Shown piece after piece: positions 42,998 to 50,337 of a stretch of 64,000 nt of DNA. The notes beneath the pieces were generated by a model, which saw only the letters and a program-made list of their open reading frames with translations, was not told where the DNA came from and ran no database searches. The stretch is from Halobaculum gomorrense. Lineage in GTDB: Archaea; Halobacteriota; Halobacteria; Halobacteriales; Haloferacaceae. Positions within the stretch are counted from its first letter, which is position 1. Each line of letters begins with the position of its first letter. The DNA is taken from assembly GCF_900129775.1 (NCBI RefSeq), contig NZ_FQWV01000002.1, positions 1-64,000 on the forward strand. Direction: 5' to 3'. The translations under genes were made by a program, and so were the position numbers.

Positions 42998-43069
42998 GCC
43001 TGGGTAGCTTAGCGGTAAAGCGCGTCCTTGGTAAGGACGAGAGCCCGGGTTCAAATCCCGGCCTAGGCT
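42998..43069 (+). tRNA. tRNA-Thr (anticodon GGU)
   Basis: 72 bases. Acceptor GCCTGGG/CCTAGGC (one G-U), D-arm GCTT/AAGC, anticodon stem CGTCC/GGACG, loop TTGGTAA (anticodon GGT), T-arm CCGGG-TTCAAAT-CCCGG. An AT-rich cctaaaga box at about 42966-42973 lies 25-32 bases upstream. The 3' half is the integration site of the island that follows; the gene itself stays intact. Confidence 0.93.
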
Positions 43070-43070
43070 T
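43035..43070 (+). repeat. Left attachment repeat (attL) inside tRNA-Thr
   Basis: 36 bases from the 3' anticodon stem to one base past the tRNA end, identical to 50302-50337. These two copies delimit the island. Confidence 0.9.
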
Positions 43071-43499
43071 GCTCCTTCGTCGCAGGCTGTAATTGGCACA
43101 CAGCGCCCTTCTAGCATAACTCTGTCGCCGATTAGCGCGAGAAGGCCACCCGTTTCTCGGCGTGTTTCACCGCAAACAACACCAGTGAAGGACTCCCGCA
43201 AGCGCAGTCCGGCGACTGCGTGCGGCGATTCTGCAAAAGGACGCCGAGCGCGGCGAGTCGAACGCGGCGGGAACGCCCCGTTCATTCCGGGAGGTCGATA
43301 ACTCTCGGGTATCCCCTATGGGGGCGGTTTGTAGAACTTGTAAGGGCCCTTCCAGAGTGGCAGAAACGTAGACCCCTCCTCATCTCCCATGACGCCGCCG
43401 TAGTACGGTTTCATCGGAACCGGCGATACAGGTATATACTCCGAATAAGTCGTGATGGGGGATACGGACGAGAGGTACTCGTTCTCCTCGTAACTACCT
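43071..43499. other. Non-coding left end of the island
   Basis: 429 bases between attL and the first clear gene. It contains a palindromic TATA-like box gtatatac at 43432-43439, usable in both directions. On the plus strand it lies 60 bases before the ATG at 43500. On the minus strand an ATG at 43414 opens 32 codons (MKPYYGGVMGDEEGSTFLPL and so on, to 43316) at near-promoter distance. No other coding or structured sequence is convincing. Confidence 0.4.
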
Positions 43500-44168
43500 A
43501 TGAGCGAAGCAGACACGAGTCATACGTATAGCGATCTGCACCACTGCGACACAAACTATGCGACCAAGTTCTACCCGTGGGAGAAAGGGGTTGATGAGTA
43601 TTGGAACGGCGATGAGACGTGGATGAACCCCGATGCGTTCCGCTTCTCGAACAAGAAAGCACAACTCACCTATATGGAGCAACTTCATCGGGGTATCCGA
43701 AACGGCAAGCGGACGAACAAGCCCTACTTTACCCGCGCGGACAACGTCGATCTCATCGAGAACGTCGCGTTCCAAATCGGGCTCACGTCCGCACAGGCGT
43801 CCCGTGCCAAGTCTGGGTACTTCTACGTCCATCCCGACCGAATCAAGGGGGAACGTAAGGATGTGACTGCTGTGGCCGTCTGCTTGTACGTGGCTGTCAA
43901 AGCAGGCCGGCCTTTCCATCCACAGAAACATGATGAAAACGGCGTTCCACTGGCCAATCGCTATGCTCGGATGTTCGTCTGTGACCCGAGCGACATCGTA
44001 AGCCGATACGGGAAGGTACAACACCACCTCCGAAACGGAATCCCCAACTTTGCGGAGGAAGCCGAGCGCGAGCCTAAGTCAATGCTCTTGATCGACGAAG
44101 ACCCCTTCCACGATGAAGCAGGCATCGGGGAAGGGGGTATATATGGGTTTGACCATTCCTCTTGGTGA
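43500..44168 (+). CDS. Island protein of unknown function, possible TFIIB-type cyclin fold
   Basis: 222 residues. No clear family. The central part DLIENVAFQIGLTSAQASRAK...GERKDVTAVAVCLYVAVKAG followed by RPF resembles one cyclin repeat of archaeal TFB (helix, then AxAAxYLAxxxxGxP-like), but the N-terminal zinc ribbon and second repeat are missing. Several His/Trp-rich aromatic patches (DLHHCDTNYATKFYPWEK) lie at the N-terminus and an acidic tail at the C-terminus. The first gene of the island by position; regulator is an inference only. Confidence 0.65.
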   Translation: MSEADTSHTYSDLHHCDTNYATKFYPWEKGVDEYWNGDETWMNPDAFRFSNKKAQLTYMEQLHRGIRNGKRTNKPYFTRADNVDLIENVAFQIGLTSAQASRAKSGYFYVHPDRIKGERKDVTAVAVCLYVAVKAGRPFHPQKHDENGVPLANRYARMFVCDPSDIVSRYGKVQHHLRNGIPNFAEEAEREPKSMLLIDEDPFHDEAGIGEGGIYGFDHSSW

Positions 44169-44389
44169 GGACAAGGGGAAGTCGGTGGAGCCCCCGAAAC
44201 TTCTTCTCACGTAACGCCCAAATCTGCGAGAACGCGCTCCTTCAATCGGAAATTCACCGGATTGGAAGTTCAAAGGCTGCAAGAACGCGCCTTTCGGCTT
44301 GGAGGCCCCGATCAAAGTCAGGGCTTCCCGCCGTTTTGGATTCGAGAGGGCGAGACAGATTAGTACTCTCGTCGCTGACTCATCCTCGA

Positions 44390-44698
44390 ATGACCATCCA
44401 AATCGTTCCCGAGGACTACCGTTGGCGAAGTGAGACAGTTCGTGTCGGGGAGCGATTTACCCTCCCATACCACTCTACCGGCATCTCGATTCTTCCTGCT
44501 GACGACACTGGCGAGGTTGTGACCGTGACGTATCTCAAAAAGTCTGGTGAGAATGACGATGAAGGAAACTGCTTCACGGTTAAGCGGGACTCTCTCAACT
44601 CTCATGAAGCCGTTATCGGCCTGCCTCACTATTCTACGGGCGAGACAGTTTGTCCCGAGCTCGACGGTGAAAAGGCGACAGTCTATTGGCTCGGATAA
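44390..44698 (+). CDS. Small island protein of unknown function
   Basis: 102 residues from the ATG at 44390 with an AT-rich box (gattagtact, about 44358-44367) 23-32 bases upstream. The sequence is beta-rich, with LPYHSTGI and LPHYSTGE as an internal echo and the alternating VTVTYLKK strand. Two similar half-repeats suggest a small beta-barrel. No domain recognised. Confidence 0.5.
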   Translation: MTIQIVPEDYRWRSETVRVGERFTLPYHSTGISILPADDTGEVVTVTYLKKSGENDDEGNCFTVKRDSLNSHEAVIGLPHYSTGETVCPELDGEKATVYWLG

Positions 44699-44828
44699 GG
44701 CCCCTTTCGCGCTCGGCAAAATGACCCATTTTCTCGAACGGAGTTACGTACTTCCTCTGCTAATGGCCGGATTGATGTGATAACCGCCGTTGAGTAGCGC
44801 GTTCCTGCTGTATGTGGCGACCTCACGA

Positions 44829-46313
44829 CTAATCGAACAACTCTGCCGAGTTCACATCGAGAGCCGCTTCGTCCATCTTCTCACCAATCTTGTCTATACT
44901 CAACCCTGTCTTCTCGGCCAAATCCATGTATGCGACGACGGATGCGCCCATGAATCGGCGTGCTTCAGCCACTACGTCTTTCGGATGGTCAAACTCCTCG
45001 TCTAATACCTTCAAACGGTTATTTTGGTCTAACACATCTGCGAGATACTGGTTCTCGTGAACGATGTCTCCCCTAAGCGAGTAGATGTCTTGTAGGAACT
45101 TCTGGATGTACTCTCTTTCGTAGGGGAGTCTATCCTGCAATATCTGACCTCCACGCAATTTGAGTCGAAGGGTGATTGAACTCCCTGACCCGACTCCTTG
45201 GAGAAGGAGCCCTTCCAGCCCGATTAGACAATCAAGGAGTTGGTCTTCGTAGAACCTCTTCGACCAGATCTCGTTGAACCTCTGAATTGAACGGGTGAAC
45301 TGACCGTCCTTATCGAGACGAATCCGTTGGCAGTGACGCTCCCAGAACTCAGTAAACTCTTCAACCGAGTCTGGATACAACAGGTATGCTTCTTGCCGTT
45401 GTGTTCGGTCTTTATGTGCGTCTCCGATCACCGTGAAATCCGGAATACCCTCTCTGAATTCTAGCCAGTTTGGCTCTCGCCGGAAGGTAGTGCCAACGAC
45501 TAGATCACCTGTTTCTGGGTCAGGGTCAAAGAGCCGAAGTGCTGTCGCTAATCGCTCTCCAACTTCTTCACCGGGGTCATAGAGTGTTCCTTCAGGTTCT
45601 CGTGCCGCTATTTCTGCATGGATTTTGTACTCACAGGCGTCAACAGGGTTTAGATTGAACTGCTCCCCTCCACCTGCTGATGACGTATGGATTCCCCGCC
45701 TTTCCGAATCAGTAATAGGGCAGATACGAAGAGACTCAACTCGATAGTAATTGTGCCGTCTTCGACGGAGTTCAAATTCTGGAGATAATTCGATAACTGC
45801 CTCGTCGTCTCTTGGGATATTGAATAGGTGGAGTGGAATGATAATTTCGAATGTTTCCAGCCCGGTCTCATACTTCGGAAGCCAGTGCTCCTCGTATGCC
45901 CGATTGAACCCTTCATCTGTGACCACGTAACCTCCTGAATAATCCATCACTGTGCCAGCGAAGTTGAAAAGTGCGTTAACGTAGGGGAATAGATTAGGTT
46001 CCTCCGGGGGCTCGTAGTCCTCCGGTGCACCAAGAAATACTACGTCTTCGTCGTGGTCAGCAGGCTCATTAAGACCAAATCCGTTCCCGGTCGTGTGCAT
46101 CCACTCTGCGGTCTCTTTGAAGAACTCCTGCTGGCGTGAGGAATAGAACGTAATAATCCGGGAGGGCTCATCGATAGTCGTCTCTTTTCTGTCCATCCGA
46201 TCTCCTGCGGCAATCCGGAGTTTGGGAACGAAATCCTGCTCCTCACGGACAGTCTTGGCAAAATCCTCTACGCACCCTCTTACCCGCTTCTTCAATTCAT
46301 CTTGACTGTCCAT
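44829..46313 (-). CDS. HEPN-domain protein, ApeA-like, putative abortive defence effector
   Basis: 494 residues from the ATG at 46313; a TTG start 30 bases upstream is possible. The C-terminal part, QLLDCLIGLEGLLLQGVGSG then LPYEREYIQKFLQDIYSLRG and DIVHENQY, is a HEPN domain: a conserved helix with E, then R414-x4-H419, the catalytic RNase motif (Rx4-6H). The long N-terminal region (about 300 residues) with FEIIIPLHLFNIP and aromatic strands resembles the sensor region of ApeA-type antiphage proteins. Function inferred: RNA cleavage after phage sensing. Its gene sits downstream of an McrA-like nuclease gene on the same strand, separated by a small insertion element. Confidence 0.7.
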   Translation of the reverse strand: MDSQDELKKRVRGCVEDFAKTVREEQDFVPKLRIAAGDRMDRKETTIDEPSRIITFYSSRQQEFFKETAEWMHTTGNGFGLNEPADHDEDVVFLGAPEDYEPPEEPNLFPYVNALFNFAGTVMDYSGGYVVTDEGFNRAYEEHWLPKYETGLETFEIIIPLHLFNIPRDDEAVIELSPEFELRRRRHNYYRVESLRICPITDSERRGIHTSSAGGGEQFNLNPVDACEYKIHAEIAAREPEGTLYDPGEEVGERLATALRLFDPDPETGDLVVGTTFRREPNWLEFREGIPDFTVIGDAHKDRTQRQEAYLLYPDSVEEFTEFWERHCQRIRLDKDGQFTRSIQRFNEIWSKRFYEDQLLDCLIGLEGLLLQGVGSGSSITLRLKLRGGQILQDRLPYEREYIQKFLQDIYSLRGDIVHENQYLADVLDQNNRLKVLDEEFDHPKDVVAEARRFMGASVVAYMDLAEKTGLSIDKIGEKMDEAALDVNSAELFD

Positions 46314-46379
46314 AATAGGACGAGTGTACCTCGTTGTCTTCAAATTGTGGCTCTATTGATAAAGTGAAGTCCAACTTAG

Positions 46380-46387
46380 ACAATTCA
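46380..46387. repeat. Target-site duplication, left copy
   Basis: acaattca, directly before the left inverted end of the small element; the same 8 bases follow the right end at 46513-46520. An 8-base duplication is typical of IS6-family transposition. Confidence 0.85.
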
Positions 46388-46512
46388 GGCTCTGTTGAAA
46401 TCCTTCAGAGTTGACATTGGGAAGAGCGACTCTCCCCACCGGTTTTCGTCGGTACGGTTGGAAACTAGCCTCTCAGCAAATCGCAAGACGTGAAGAGGAT
46501 TTCAACAGAGCC
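46388..46512. mobile_element. 125-bp MITE with IS6-like terminal inverted repeats
   Basis: Terminal inverted repeats of 17 bases, ggctctgttgaaatcct (46388-46404) and its exact complement (46496-46512), enclose about 90 bases without a gene. Flanking 8-base duplications acaattca prove insertion by transposition. The ends resemble what I recall of IS6-family termini (GGxxCTGTTGxAA), so an IS6-family transposase elsewhere in the genome probably moved it. The insertion preserved the TGA of the upstream gene, which now lies in the right duplication. Confidence 0.88.
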
Positions 46513-46517
46513 ACAAT

Positions 46518-47363
46518 TCACGGTTGAAGACGCTGGTTTCGGGTTTCTGCTTTCTCGATGAGACTGTCATTTAATTCGTCTCCGTGCTGTCCGTTGTGGA
46601 CTTCCCGATGGCAGTTCGGGCAGATGGCAATTACGTTTTCAGGGTCGTCTACTCCCCCATCGCTGACCCGGTAGAGGTGATGAACTTCCAGAAACGGCTC
46701 ACCGGCCTTAGAAATAAATGGTGCATCCTCCATACACGCTTGACAAACCCCTTCCGACATACGAAGAGCGAAGTCTCGAACAAGATCGCTCCGCGTATAC
46801 GATGTTCTTGTACCGCTTGTGGATGAAACTGACTTCCCTGGTGCGCTCTCTTTGGCCCGTTTGAACAACTCTTCTTTAGAGAGATTATTCACTTCTGACT
46901 CGTCTAAGTCCGTATCAAGACCCCCTTTCGGACTCAATTTGAATCGAACAGCGTCACGCATCTCATCGTTGTCGTCCGGGGCACGTTCCCAGTAGTGGTC
47001 TACGTACTCGTACTCTCCATCATAAGTCACTACGTCGGCTCCGTTCTGCTCACCTACCTTTTCGAAGACGAGTAGAGAATCCCCATTCTCTTTGTGATTG
47101 AGAATACGTCCGTTCCCGCCGTCTAGAGTCATATCACCGACTCGCCCTTCACCAGAATAGACAAAGAGTCCGTTATCGAGGAATCGATCACTATATCCAT
47201 GTTCCTCGGAGTCTGGGTCAGTGAAGACGAATATGAATGACTCCGAAGAAGGGGTTGAGATTCCATACTGGCGTTGTCCCCTGAATTGATCGTGGAGTTC
47301 TTTTCGGAGGTACTGATTCCCCACTGTAAAATTGGGATTCAGGGGGACGTCACTAATCTCCAT
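46518..47363 (-). CDS. Modification-dependent HNH endonuclease, McrA-like (SRA-like + HNH)
   Basis: 281 residues from the ATG at 47363. Residues about 25-125, with RQYGISTPSSESFIFVFTD, YSDRFLDNGLFVYSGEG and ILNHKENGDSLLVFEK, resemble the SRA-type modified-base reader of ScoMcrA-like proteins. The C-terminus is a complete zinc HNH nuclease: C207-x2-C210, H228-H229, N243, C248-x2-C251-H252. Such type IV enzymes cut DNA carrying methyl- or phosphorothioate-type modifications; which one is not visible. The stop codon overlaps the right target duplication of the MITE. Confidence 0.82.
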   Translation of the reverse strand: MEISDVPLNPNFTVGNQYLRKELHDQFRGQRQYGISTPSSESFIFVFTDPDSEEHGYSDRFLDNGLFVYSGEGRVGDMTLDGGNGRILNHKENGDSLLVFEKVGEQNGADVVTYDGEYEYVDHYWERAPDDNDEMRDAVRFKLSPKGGLDTDLDESEVNNLSKEELFKRAKESAPGKSVSSTSGTRTSYTRSDLVRDFALRMSEGVCQACMEDAPFISKAGEPFLEVHHLYRVSDGGVDDPENVIAICPNCHREVHNGQHGDELNDSLIEKAETRNQRLQP

Positions 47364-47535
47364 GTGGACATAGAACAACTAATGGATAATTATTCTATTC
47401 AATGTGTTTTAACTACCGGGACTCAAAATAATCAATTGTGCAATCCCCTCCTGCGTATCGACGAGGAGACCGGCACTAATGAATATAGAAGCCAACGAGA
47501 CAATTTTTAAACCTCGCTGTTAATCTCCCGAACAA

Positions 47536-48834
47536 ATGGATAATTCCGACGACCGATGCAGGTTCTCTCTAGATTCAGAGGACTTACCTGAGGGACTTGG
47601 CGGTTTTTGTTGCTGGCGCCCCACCTGGAGGGAGACAGATCAGTGTATCTGGCATGCAGATGTTGAAGATAAGCCGAGTGAAGAACTAGAAGATAGCCGA
47701 TCTGAGTATCCTGAGCGCTTAGATGGAGCGCGATTAGTCGGTGCAGACTTGTCATGGATTTCGTTTTATGAATGCTCATTAGCGAAGGCAATACTGAACA
47801 GAGCTGTTCTAGATAATACCAACCTCGCCGATGCGAACTTAGTAGAGGCAAATCTCTCAAGAGCAGGGCTATCCTCCATCAATCTTAGAGGCGCTAATCT
47901 ATCTGATGCAATCATAAACCAAGCTGATTTACACAGCGCCGATCTTTCTATGTCGAATTTAGCTACTTCTGATTTTTCGGGGTCTGAGTTGATACATGCT
48001 GACCTGGCTGGAGCAGATATTTCGGGAGCTAACTTCAGTGATACTCGATTACCATTCGCCGACCTTGTCGATACCAACATCAGAGGTGCTCAATTTAGTC
48101 GTGCAAATTTGCAAGGTGCAGACCTTTCTCGATCAACGGGCGGATGGGAAGATCTCACAGAATCCGATATACGTAATTGGAATATCTCTGAATCTGAACT
48201 CGGTAGAGTTGATTTCTCTGAGGCGTTATTAAAAGGCGTTGCTGGGAGAAAAGCTGATCTTAGTGGTGCAAAATTCACAAATGCCAATCTATCTGATTCT
48301 GACTTTGTCGGGTCAAGCTTCAATAACGCAGATTTCAGCCAATCTAATTTAATCGAAGGAAATTTTTCAGGAGTAGACTTCTCGTCAGCTGATTTTTCTG
48401 AGGCAGATTTAACAAACGCCGATTTGTCAAGGAGTAAATTAATAAACTCTACTATTCACAATACTAAGATTCGTGAGGTTAACCTGTCCTATGCCGATCT
48501 CACTGATGCAGATGTTTCCAATTCTGATTTCTCAGGTGCTAATTTCGAGAGCACTATCTTACAGAATATCGATCTCTCGAATAGTAACCTGTCTGCGGTC
48601 AATATACGATCAGCCAATCTCTCGAACACCACTCTGCCCCGGGGACTTACCATCAAAAGATTCCTTCCAATTGCGATAGGGGCCACTACGATACTTCTGA
48701 CATCTGCTTTGGTTACATCCCTCTACTTCAATTTATATAAGGGAATGTATCTTTCTTACCTTGTCATACTTTTCGCCCTTGCTTCTTCTTTGTTATCTTT
48801 CTATAGCTTTCTATCAAATGAGGGGATTCGATGA
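47536..48834 (+). CDS. Pentapeptide-repeat protein with C-terminal membrane helices
   Basis: 432 residues. An N-terminal Cys/Trp segment (FCCWRPTWRETDQCIWH) precedes about 60 tandem pentapeptides of the A(D/N)LxX type (LDGARLVGADLS, ADLSMSNLATSDFS and so on, residues about 60-365), which fold as a right-handed beta-helix. Two membrane helices follow (LPIAIGATTILLTSALVTSL; YLVILFALASSLLSFYSFL). The gene is strikingly AT-rich (many TTA, AGA and ATA codons) compared with the rest of the window. It overlaps the next gene by 4 bases. Confidence 0.88.
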   Translation: MDNSDDRCRFSLDSEDLPEGLGGFCCWRPTWRETDQCIWHADVEDKPSEELEDSRSEYPERLDGARLVGADLSWISFYECSLAKAILNRAVLDNTNLADANLVEANLSRAGLSSINLRGANLSDAIINQADLHSADLSMSNLATSDFSGSELIHADLAGADISGANFSDTRLPFADLVDTNIRGAQFSRANLQGADLSRSTGGWEDLTESDIRNWNISESELGRVDFSEALLKGVAGRKADLSGAKFTNANLSDSDFVGSSFNNADFSQSNLIEGNFSGVDFSSADFSEADLTNADLSRSKLINSTIHNTKIREVNLSYADLTDADVSNSDFSGANFESTILQNIDLSNSNLSAVNIRSANLSNTTLPRGLTIKRFLPIAIGATTILLTSALVTSLYFNLYKGMYLSYLVILFALASSLLSFYSFLSNEGIR

Positions 48835-49151
48835 GTTTATTTGGGTTATCTACTCGGGCTTGGAGAATTTGGGGGTTAGTGAATGGTGGGTTTGCTGGTC
48901 TTTTTTACCTTACATACGAGGTTATCGGTATTGTTTCCCCTTCTTTAACCCTGTTAATGTTAGAAAATTTGATTCTATCTGGACTTTTCGGAGGTTTAGC
49001 AGCAATATGCGTGTTTATAGCAGAAACACCACATAGAACTGCTCAAGATAGAGGTCAAACATCTCAACAAGAATCGACTATGGAAAGTAGCCAAGACGTT
49101 GGCACATCATCACAAGATGGAGAAGAGGCTGTGGAACTAGAAGAAAGTTAA
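48831..49151 (+). CDS. Small membrane protein coupled to the pentapeptide-repeat gene
   Basis: 106 residues; ATG overlaps the upstream stop (ATGA). Two helices (GLVNGGFAGLFYLTYEVIGI; LILSGLFGGLAAICVFIAET) are followed by a Ser/Gln/Glu-rich soluble tail. AT-rich like its partner. No known family. Translational coupling suggests the two proteins form a membrane complex. Confidence 0.7.
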   Translation: MSLFGLSTRAWRIWGLVNGGFAGLFYLTYEVIGIVSPSLTLLMLENLILSGLFGGLAAICVFIAETPHRTAQDRGQTSQQESTMESSQDVGTSSQDGEEAVELEES

Positions 49152-49229
49152 ATAATATTAGTATAATATGGTAGAATATAACTTCAATTGGTAAAGTTAA
49201 GTAAAGTCCAAAATTATTATGATTAGAAC
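49152..49229. terminator. AT-rich convergent spacer
   Basis: 78 bases of about 80 per cent A+T between the stops of the small membrane protein gene and the integrase gene, with T-rich stretches on both strands. Probably the shared termination region. No stable hairpin stands out. Confidence 0.35.
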
Positions 49230-50237
49230 TCAAATGTCTCTTATGTAGCTTCGTCGTCTCTCGGCTTTCTCCGCACTCGACCCCTTATCGTAGTGCTTAT
49301 CAAGCACTTTCCCGCTCATGTTGACCCGTTCCCCGGTAACGTCCTTGGGTTGCCCTGCGTTCCGCGCCGCCGTGACGTAGCCCCGGCGAAGGGCGTGAGG
49401 GCTGACCGAACCGGGACATTTGCAAGAGGCGTTCCACGACATAGCCTCACACTCTTCGGGATTTCGGTCGAACGGACAGCTTCCGCCGTTGTAGTAGCAT
49501 GGACGGGTCGCCGTGTAGACGTACCGCTGTATGGTCGTCTCAACGATGCGCCCGCTCTTGGACGTCAGTAGCGGCTCTCTGCCGTGATCGTCGGTGACGT
49601 CCTTCCGGTTCATATCGACGTAGTCACGGACGACCTCGGCCACCTCTGGGGTTATCAGCACGTCCCGCTCGCTTCGCTCCTTGTTTTTGAGCGGCGTTCC
49701 CTCAGTTGGACGGTGACGGAGTTCCAGCGCCGGGCGGCCTTCGTCAAAGTCTCCGAGGTCGAGCGCCCGGAGACCGCTGAGACGCATCCCGGTCTTCCAG
49801 AGGAGTAGTAGAGTGACGTGTCGATTGCTGGCGTACTCGAACTTATCGAGGAAGTTCAACAACTCGGAGGCTTCGTCCCGCGTGAGAAGGTCGTCACAGA
49901 TTTCGTCGTTCTCGCTGACTGCGGGTATCCGAACCATATCAGCCATCCCCCGTGGGACAGCCGCGATATGCCCGCAGAACTCGATGAACTGCTTGATGGT
50001 CATCATATCCTGACGAGCCGTGATGACCTTGACCTTGGATAGCCGGAACTCCTTGTACCGCTGGATGAGTTCGCTGTCGAGGTCGTTCAGGTTCGTGAGT
50101 TGCTGGTCGTCCAGCCAGTCGCAGAACTGCCGGAGACAGGTGCGGTAGTTCTTGAGCGTCTTCCGCGTGACGCCCGGCTTCTTGTCGTTGAGGAATCGGT
50201 TCTTGGCTTCGTGCGGCGGCGTCGGTTTCAGGCTCAT
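49230..50237 (-). CDS. Tyrosine recombinase / integrase of the island
   Basis: 335 residues. An N-terminal SAM-like core-binding domain (KNYRTCLRQFCDWLDDQQL) and a C-terminal catalytic domain with Arg in LLLLWKTGMRLSGLRALDL, the HxxR motif in SPHALRRGYVTAARNAG, and the nucleophile Tyr in VLDKHYDKGSS. The protein is intact and does not contain the attachment site, unlike SSV-type integrases. Its GC content is closer to the host than the pentapeptide module. The gene reads into the island from the attR side. Confidence 0.9.
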   Translation of the reverse strand: MSLKPTPPHEAKNRFLNDKKPGVTRKTLKNYRTCLRQFCDWLDDQQLTNLNDLDSELIQRYKEFRLSKVKVITARQDMMTIKQFIEFCGHIAAVPRGMADMVRIPAVSENDEICDDLLTRDEASELLNFLDKFEYASNRHVTLLLLWKTGMRLSGLRALDLGDFDEGRPALELRHRPTEGTPLKNKERSERDVLITPEVAEVVRDYVDMNRKDVTDDHGREPLLTSKSGRIVETTIQRYVYTATRPCYYNGGSCPFDRNPEECEAMSWNASCKCPGSVSPHALRRGYVTAARNAGQPKDVTGERVNMSGKVLDKHYDKGSSAEKAERRRSYIRDI

Positions 50238-50283
50238 AGGCTATCTGGGTACAGCCTGCGTAAACGGGTCGTCCGGGTACACA

Positions 50284-50298
50284 GGGCGTGAAACGCCC
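50284..50298. repeat. Perfect hairpin beside attR
   Basis: Arms gggcgt and acgccc around gaa, four bases left of the right attachment repeat, in the integrase upstream region. Possibly an arm-type binding site for the integrase or a control hairpin. Confidence 0.4.
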
Positions 50299-50301
50299 GG
50301 C

Positions 50302-50337
50302 GGACGAGAGCCCGGGTTCAAATCCCGGCCTAGGCTT
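50302..50337 (+). repeat. Right attachment repeat (attR)
   Basis: Identical to 43035-43070, the tRNA-Thr 3' end. It is followed by a run of seven T (50336-50342), which lies where the terminator of the pre-insertion tRNA would be. Confidence 0.9.

Follow-up and report, generated by a model that had tools for sequence, protein, structure and literature searches.

A 125-bp MITE of haloarchaea with the terminal repeats of IS5-family elements

Members of the ISH1 subgroup of the IS5 family are expected to leave 8-bp target duplications, and a start of the form GGCnCTGTTG resembles IS26-type ends. The closest described systems are the haloarchaeal IS5 elements ISHla2 and ISHxa2, IS6-family MITEs (PMC7986276) and the MITEs and small mobile repeats (SMRs) of Haloquadratum; in Haloquadratum walsbyi, there are likewise MITEs for which the genome offers no intact helper transposase (PMC3119063). 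Here we analyzed an inverted-repeat element in a 64-kb window (the whole stretch of Halobaculum gomorrense DNA under study, 64,000 nucleotides), which had been predicted to be a perfect MITE of the IS6 family between two defence genes. Judged from sequence comparison, it is very probably a copy of a 125-bp haloarchaeal family that is moved in trans by an IS5 DDE transposase of the ISHla2/ISHxa2 group and that left its neighbours here unharmed.

The element and its family

The MITE consists of perfect 17-bp inverted repeats separated by 91 bp, exactly 125 bp in total, and is flanked by an exact 8-bp duplication; the element had been predicted correctly to the base. Its features are as follows.

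46380 to 46387 (strand not applicable): target-site duplication ACAATTCA, left copy
46388 to 46512, plus strand: MITE (non-autonomous IS5-type element), 125 bp, recognized by its inverted ends, its target duplication and dispersed copies that are nearly identical
46388 to 46404, plus strand: left terminal inverted repeat GGCTCTGTTGAAATCCT, identical to the IS5-family element ends in L037 and L060
46411 to 46418, plus strand: left subterminal box TTGACATT, conserved in the family alignment and compared with IS ends
46472 to 46489, plus strand: right subterminal box CTCAGCAAATCGCAAGAC, more conserved in the family alignment than the middle of the element
46496 to 46512, minus strand: right terminal inverted repeat AGGATTTCAACAGAGCC
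46513 to 46520 (strand not applicable): target-site duplication ACAATTCA, right copy, within which the HNH gene ends (stop codon at 46518-46520, minus strand)

When the window was scanned for perfect inverted pairs with arms of at least 15 bp, no more than 600 bp apart and bordered by an exact 8-bp direct repeat, the MITE was the only one found. As a control for chance, 100 Markov-1 random sequences of window size contained no pair with arms of at least 12 bp and an 8-bp duplication, and six in total when arms of at least 9 bp were accepted. The boundaries are further supported by copies elsewhere in the genome, which stop at identical bases. The MITE is non-coding, its longest stop-to-stop frame being 38 codons.

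The presence of further copies, suggested as a check on the original prediction, was borne out by four more full copies (80-98% identical) and several remnants in the same genome.

C10:441054-441178: full copy, 98% identical, without duplication, lying against an IS5 transposase fragment and itself between unrelated flanks
C14:8377-8501: full copy, 97% identical, with its own 8-bp duplication GTTCTTGG
C5:641618-641742: full copy, 96% identical, without duplication
C9:43627-43751: full copy, 80% identical, with its own 8-bp duplication ACTCTTTC

The duplication is thus absent at two of the five full copies in this genome (C10 and C5:641618). Within the order Halobacteriales, the MITE was matched, partly or wholly, in 91 of 392 genomes, many of the weakest matches being the shared IS/MITE end alone. 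It was also matched in 27 plasmid records, all with haloarchaeal names, and was absent from the viral contigs and phage records searched. We extracted 41 near-full copies for the family analysis. Flank matching over 129 end-pairs was bimodal, with 37 pairs matching at 8/8 versus a chance-like hump at 0-5. Flanks matching at 7-8 of 8 positions were present in 28 distinct elements, 19 of which are 124-125 bp long with duplications that differ between copies, and one genome held two more elements with matching flanks beyond those 28. Among the 8-bp targets of the 28 elements, position 1 is preferentially a purine and position 8 a pyrimidine (45 of 56 counts after strand symmetrisation).

These copies also bear on the idea of a static conserved intergenic sequence, or of a repeat expanded by recombination, that was never transposed. 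Such an origin would fit the conservation of the interior across genera; however, the copies are scattered over unrelated sites and bear individual 8-bp duplications, and the MITE is missing from a homologous gene pair. Because the duplications differ between copies, a static sequence is contradicted and we assign it a negligible probability.

In order to define the family by its ends, we searched for GGCTCTGTTGAAA ... TTTCAACAGAGCC with a free interior and an allowed length of 100-130 bp. This recovered 26 places in 16 genomes, with lengths (counted by hand) of 125 bp in 21, 124 bp in four and 108 bp in one, whose interior is unrelated; no place was recovered with the reversed pattern that served as a control. 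Divergent relatives with ends GGCCTTGTTGAAACCC are likewise 124-125 bp long. An alignment of 36 copies showed a variable middle and the two conserved subterminal boxes TTGACATT and CTCAGCAAATCGCAAGAC, and IS ends carry TTACA or TGACA/TGATA at about the same position as the left box. Although ordinary in kind, the family is well defined and has an unusually fixed length of 124-126 bp, which may stem from common descent alone. A less probable reading, to which we give some minor weight, is that the family is an old, independently evolving non-autonomous lineage rather than a set of recent deletion derivatives, with its length and the two boxes under selection. The boxes could then be, for example, sites for the transposase or a host DNA-bending protein, and the bound protein would need to be placed on set faces of the synapsed DNA, which is very short. 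The family is widespread in haloarchaea and apparently undescribed in the open literature searched, in which the end sequence did not turn up in connection with mobile elements, nor did the names of the IS elements.

Ends shared with IS5-family elements

Elements that end exactly in GGCTCTGTTGAAATCC encode IS5-family transposases (NF033579, DDE_Tnp_1). The transposase P0001 scores 219 bits against NF033579 IS5 (cut-off 140) and 69 bits against DDE_Tnp_1, and the NCBI names of its close relatives are ISHxa2 and ISHla2. L037, a 101,378-bp replicon, carries a complete IS5-family element of 1418 bp with both exact ends and the duplication GATTTTCT; an identical transposase is found in H28, a plasmid record of Halorubrum hochsteinianum. 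A second IS5-family element with both exact ends, flanked by CCCAGGGT, lies in L060, a Halobacterium salinarum plasmid, and in L127 this type of transposase occurs in a 1586-bp element, flanked by the duplication ACATGAGA, whose left end, CTTCAGCGTTGACATTGA, is of the MITE type. The similarity of the MITE to the exact-end IS elements is that of the ends alone, about 17-21 bp, with no significant similarity between its interior and the IS interiors. The 8-bp duplication, the feature expected of the ISH1 subgroup, is present in the MITE. Being short and non-coding, with inverted ends, differing duplications and ends common to an autonomous element, the element is indeed a MITE, as originally proposed.

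The proposed family did not survive the comparison. IS6 elements and the MITE have 8-bp duplications and a GGCnCTGTTG-like start in common, the latter recalling IS26-type ends, and IS6 MITEs of 227 and 336 bp have been recorded (PMC7986276), all of which would suit mobilization by an IS6 transposase. In contrast, the elements with the exact ends of the MITE encode IS5 transposases, and we encountered no IS6 element with such ends; the single haloarchaeal IS6 that was examined terminates in GGCACTGTCTAGTT versus GGCTCTGTTGAAATCC. This 744-bp IS6, with the duplication TCATTGAC, interrupts the IS5 element of L060 that bears the exact ends of the MITE, so that both families lie side by side and can be distinguished by their ends. 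The Halobaculum gomorrense genome itself has one weak PF13610 match (28 bits), near which MITE-type ends were not found. An IS6 origin is therefore very unlikely, and the MITE is almost certainly mobilized by IS5-type transposases. The earlier assignment was a plausible one, resting on similar ends and an equal duplication length, and is corrected here.

Without a transposase of its own, the MITE would depend on a DDE transposase of the IS5 family, from the ISHla2/ISHxa2 group, acting in trans. The enzyme would recognize the GGCTCTGTTGAAATCC ends, excise or copy the MITE and join it to target DNA opened by cuts 8 bp apart, and repair of the gaps would produce the 8-bp duplication. An intact transposase frame of 285 codons is present in the same genome (C5:645873-646694), 70% identical and with D118, D188 and E237 kept. 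It belongs to a 2262-bp IS5 element (G000:C5:645823-648084; L053 1451-3712) that combines the frame with extra genes, has variant ends GGCCTTGTTGAAACCC (13/16) and sits inside a MITE copy with a 7/8 duplication, while the IS5 copies with exact ends in this genome are broken or truncated. Given the variant ends of the one and the broken state of the others, an active source within the genome is at most a candidate.

Several units with the same ends were also observed. L043 (1501-2467) contains a transposase-less unit of 967 bp with the duplication GGAGAACT. Its cargo is a gene for an HVO_A0114-type protein together with one for a TumE-type toxin, a mobile pair that resembles a toxin-antitoxin system. 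A 701-bp unit with a HalOD1 gene and the duplication AAACGGGC is found in L158 (1111-1811) and, at the same site, in L101 (1501-2201); one of its ends is a whole MITE, which suggests that a MITE end may mobilize neighbouring DNA. Units of 1323 bp (L032 1501-2823) and 2392 bp (L113 175-2566) have 7/8 duplications; the latter has a MITE inserted inside and carries acyl-CoA-dehydrogenase-like and regulator-like genes, assigned by eye. In L159 (1053-1763; likewise L160), the octamers to the left of the end at 1053 (TTGTGACC) and to the left of the MITE at 1639 (GGTCACAA) are reverse complements of each other, a pattern as after intramolecular inversion by transposition. The toxin pair and the HalOD1 gene lie in units that have these ends but no transposase, so that small genes may be moved by the same machinery.

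Insertion site and neighbouring genes

The MITE lies between an HNH gene and a HEPN-type gene, within a 7.3-kb integrative island in tRNA-Thr(GGT) at window positions 42998-50337.

42998 to 43069: tRNA-Thr
43035 to 43070 and 50302 to 50337: 36-bp direct repeat of the island
44829 to 46313, minus strand: HEPN-type protein, 494 aa, downstream neighbour, with the Rx4H motif RGDIVH and a homologue annotated as HEPN domain-containing protein
46349 to 46359, plus strand: degenerate terminal repeat GGCTCTATTGA, an 11-mer match to the terminal repeat at a break in homology
46518 to 47378, minus strand: HNH endonuclease, 286 aa, upstream neighbour, with a weak SRA-like N-terminus and a C-terminal HNH
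47536 to 48834: pentapeptide-repeat protein of the island
49230 to 50237: tyrosine integrase of the island

The HNH protein matches HNH with 42 bits and SRA weakly, below the cut-off. Its HNH part also matches type IV restriction enzymes in PADLOC, and the protein is a candidate type IV restriction enzyme. The HEPN protein has no match in Pfam, NCBIfam or PADLOC and owes its label to the Rx4H motif and to the name that NCBI gives to a homologue with 91% identity. The description of the pair as defence genes is plausible on these grounds and short of proof. Searches for HNH relatives in genome contigs and for HEPN relatives in viral contigs gave none.

Both genes are intact. The right duplication holds the HNH stop codon, as had been noted (TCA on the plus strand at 46518-46520, i.e., TGA on the minus strand, 46520-46518), and because the copy of the duplication on the HNH side is complete including this codon, the insertion left the HNH protein unchanged, again as predicted. 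The MITE was further expected to form a new spacer between the two genes, and a homologous island free of it was sought. Among the 392 genomes, G291, from another family, is the sole one found with close relatives of both proteins encoded next to each other (84% and 93%), and its pair is MITE-free with a spacer of 155 nt. The MITE does sit between the genes, but the separation itself is nothing special, since the pair in G291 is spaced by 155 nt without it. Subtracting 133 bp from the window spacer gives an inferred pre-insertion length of 71 nt, which, compared with 155 nt in G291, indicates that they do not simply represent an occupied and an empty form of one spacer. Close relatives of the HEPN gene also occur without an HNH gene upstream, and the exact target junction was not found among genomes taken one per species.

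The spacer contains a degenerate third end at 46349-46359 that the original prediction had missed. GGCTCTATTGA is the only 11-mer in the 64-kb window within one mismatch of the terminal repeat, apart from the ends of the MITE itself. The HEPN-gene relatives have a common leader (ACAATTTGAAGACA...), and homology to this leader resumes at 46348 (minus strand), the next base after the degenerate end (TCAATAGAGCC on the minus strand), suggesting that the latter is a remnant of an earlier insertion. The stretch between it and the MITE gave no meaningful match when its origin was searched. The MITE would have inserted at the 3' terminus of the HNH gene, into a spacer that bore the scar of an older related insertion, and left both neighbouring proteins intact.

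It had also been proposed that the insertion supplies a promoter or insulates expression, and more generally the MITE might serve the host as a promoter, insulator or RNA element controlling the HEPN gene, whose start lies 74 nt downstream of it. No promoter-like or terminator-like site was found within the MITE; as the promoter model is bacterial, TATA-like hexamers were scanned as well, and the best of them, TTTATC, is located not in the MITE but beyond it, 50 nt before the HEPN start. The fold of a single copy is more stable than that of shuffled sequence (z about -5), which is unavoidable in an element with inverted ends of 17 bp. The consensus fold of 36 copies reaches only -2.5 kcal/mol, its well-kept pairs being those of the terminal repeats, and Rfam gave no match; a conserved RNA structure in the interior was accordingly rejected. 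Moreover, copies occur in many unrelated contexts, and under the match 24 of the 27 plasmid records have no annotated gene (two have a hypothetical protein and one record is unannotated). A host function is therefore improbable, and the MITE is most economically viewed as a neutral passenger in a place where it is tolerated.

Comparison with known systems

This work defines a MITE family across Halobacteriales genomes and plasmids and ties it to a likely transposase group, and provides a ready marker of IS5 activity in haloarchaea. The SMR-A repeats of Haloquadratum are of similar size, about 110 bp, with prominent inverted ends, but SMRs lack target duplications and their ends match no known transposon (PMC3119063), whereas the MITE has both target duplications and IS5-shared ends, which rules out its classification as an SMR. 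The IS6-family MITEs resemble it in their 8-bp duplications and short inverted ends and differ in length (227 and 336 bp; PMC7986276) and in family, the haloarchaeal IS6 ends observed here being different. Compared by description, the MITEs of Haloquadratum walsbyi are similar in being non-coding, with ends common to a transposon and a target duplication (PMC3119063). ISHla2 and ISHxa2 have the same left end, GGCTCTGTTGAAATCC, as the MITE, their complete relatives have 8-bp duplications and one related element has the MITE-type left end; in contrast to the MITE, which is 125 bp long and non-coding with an unrelated middle, they are autonomous, measure about 1.2 kb or more and encode a transposase.
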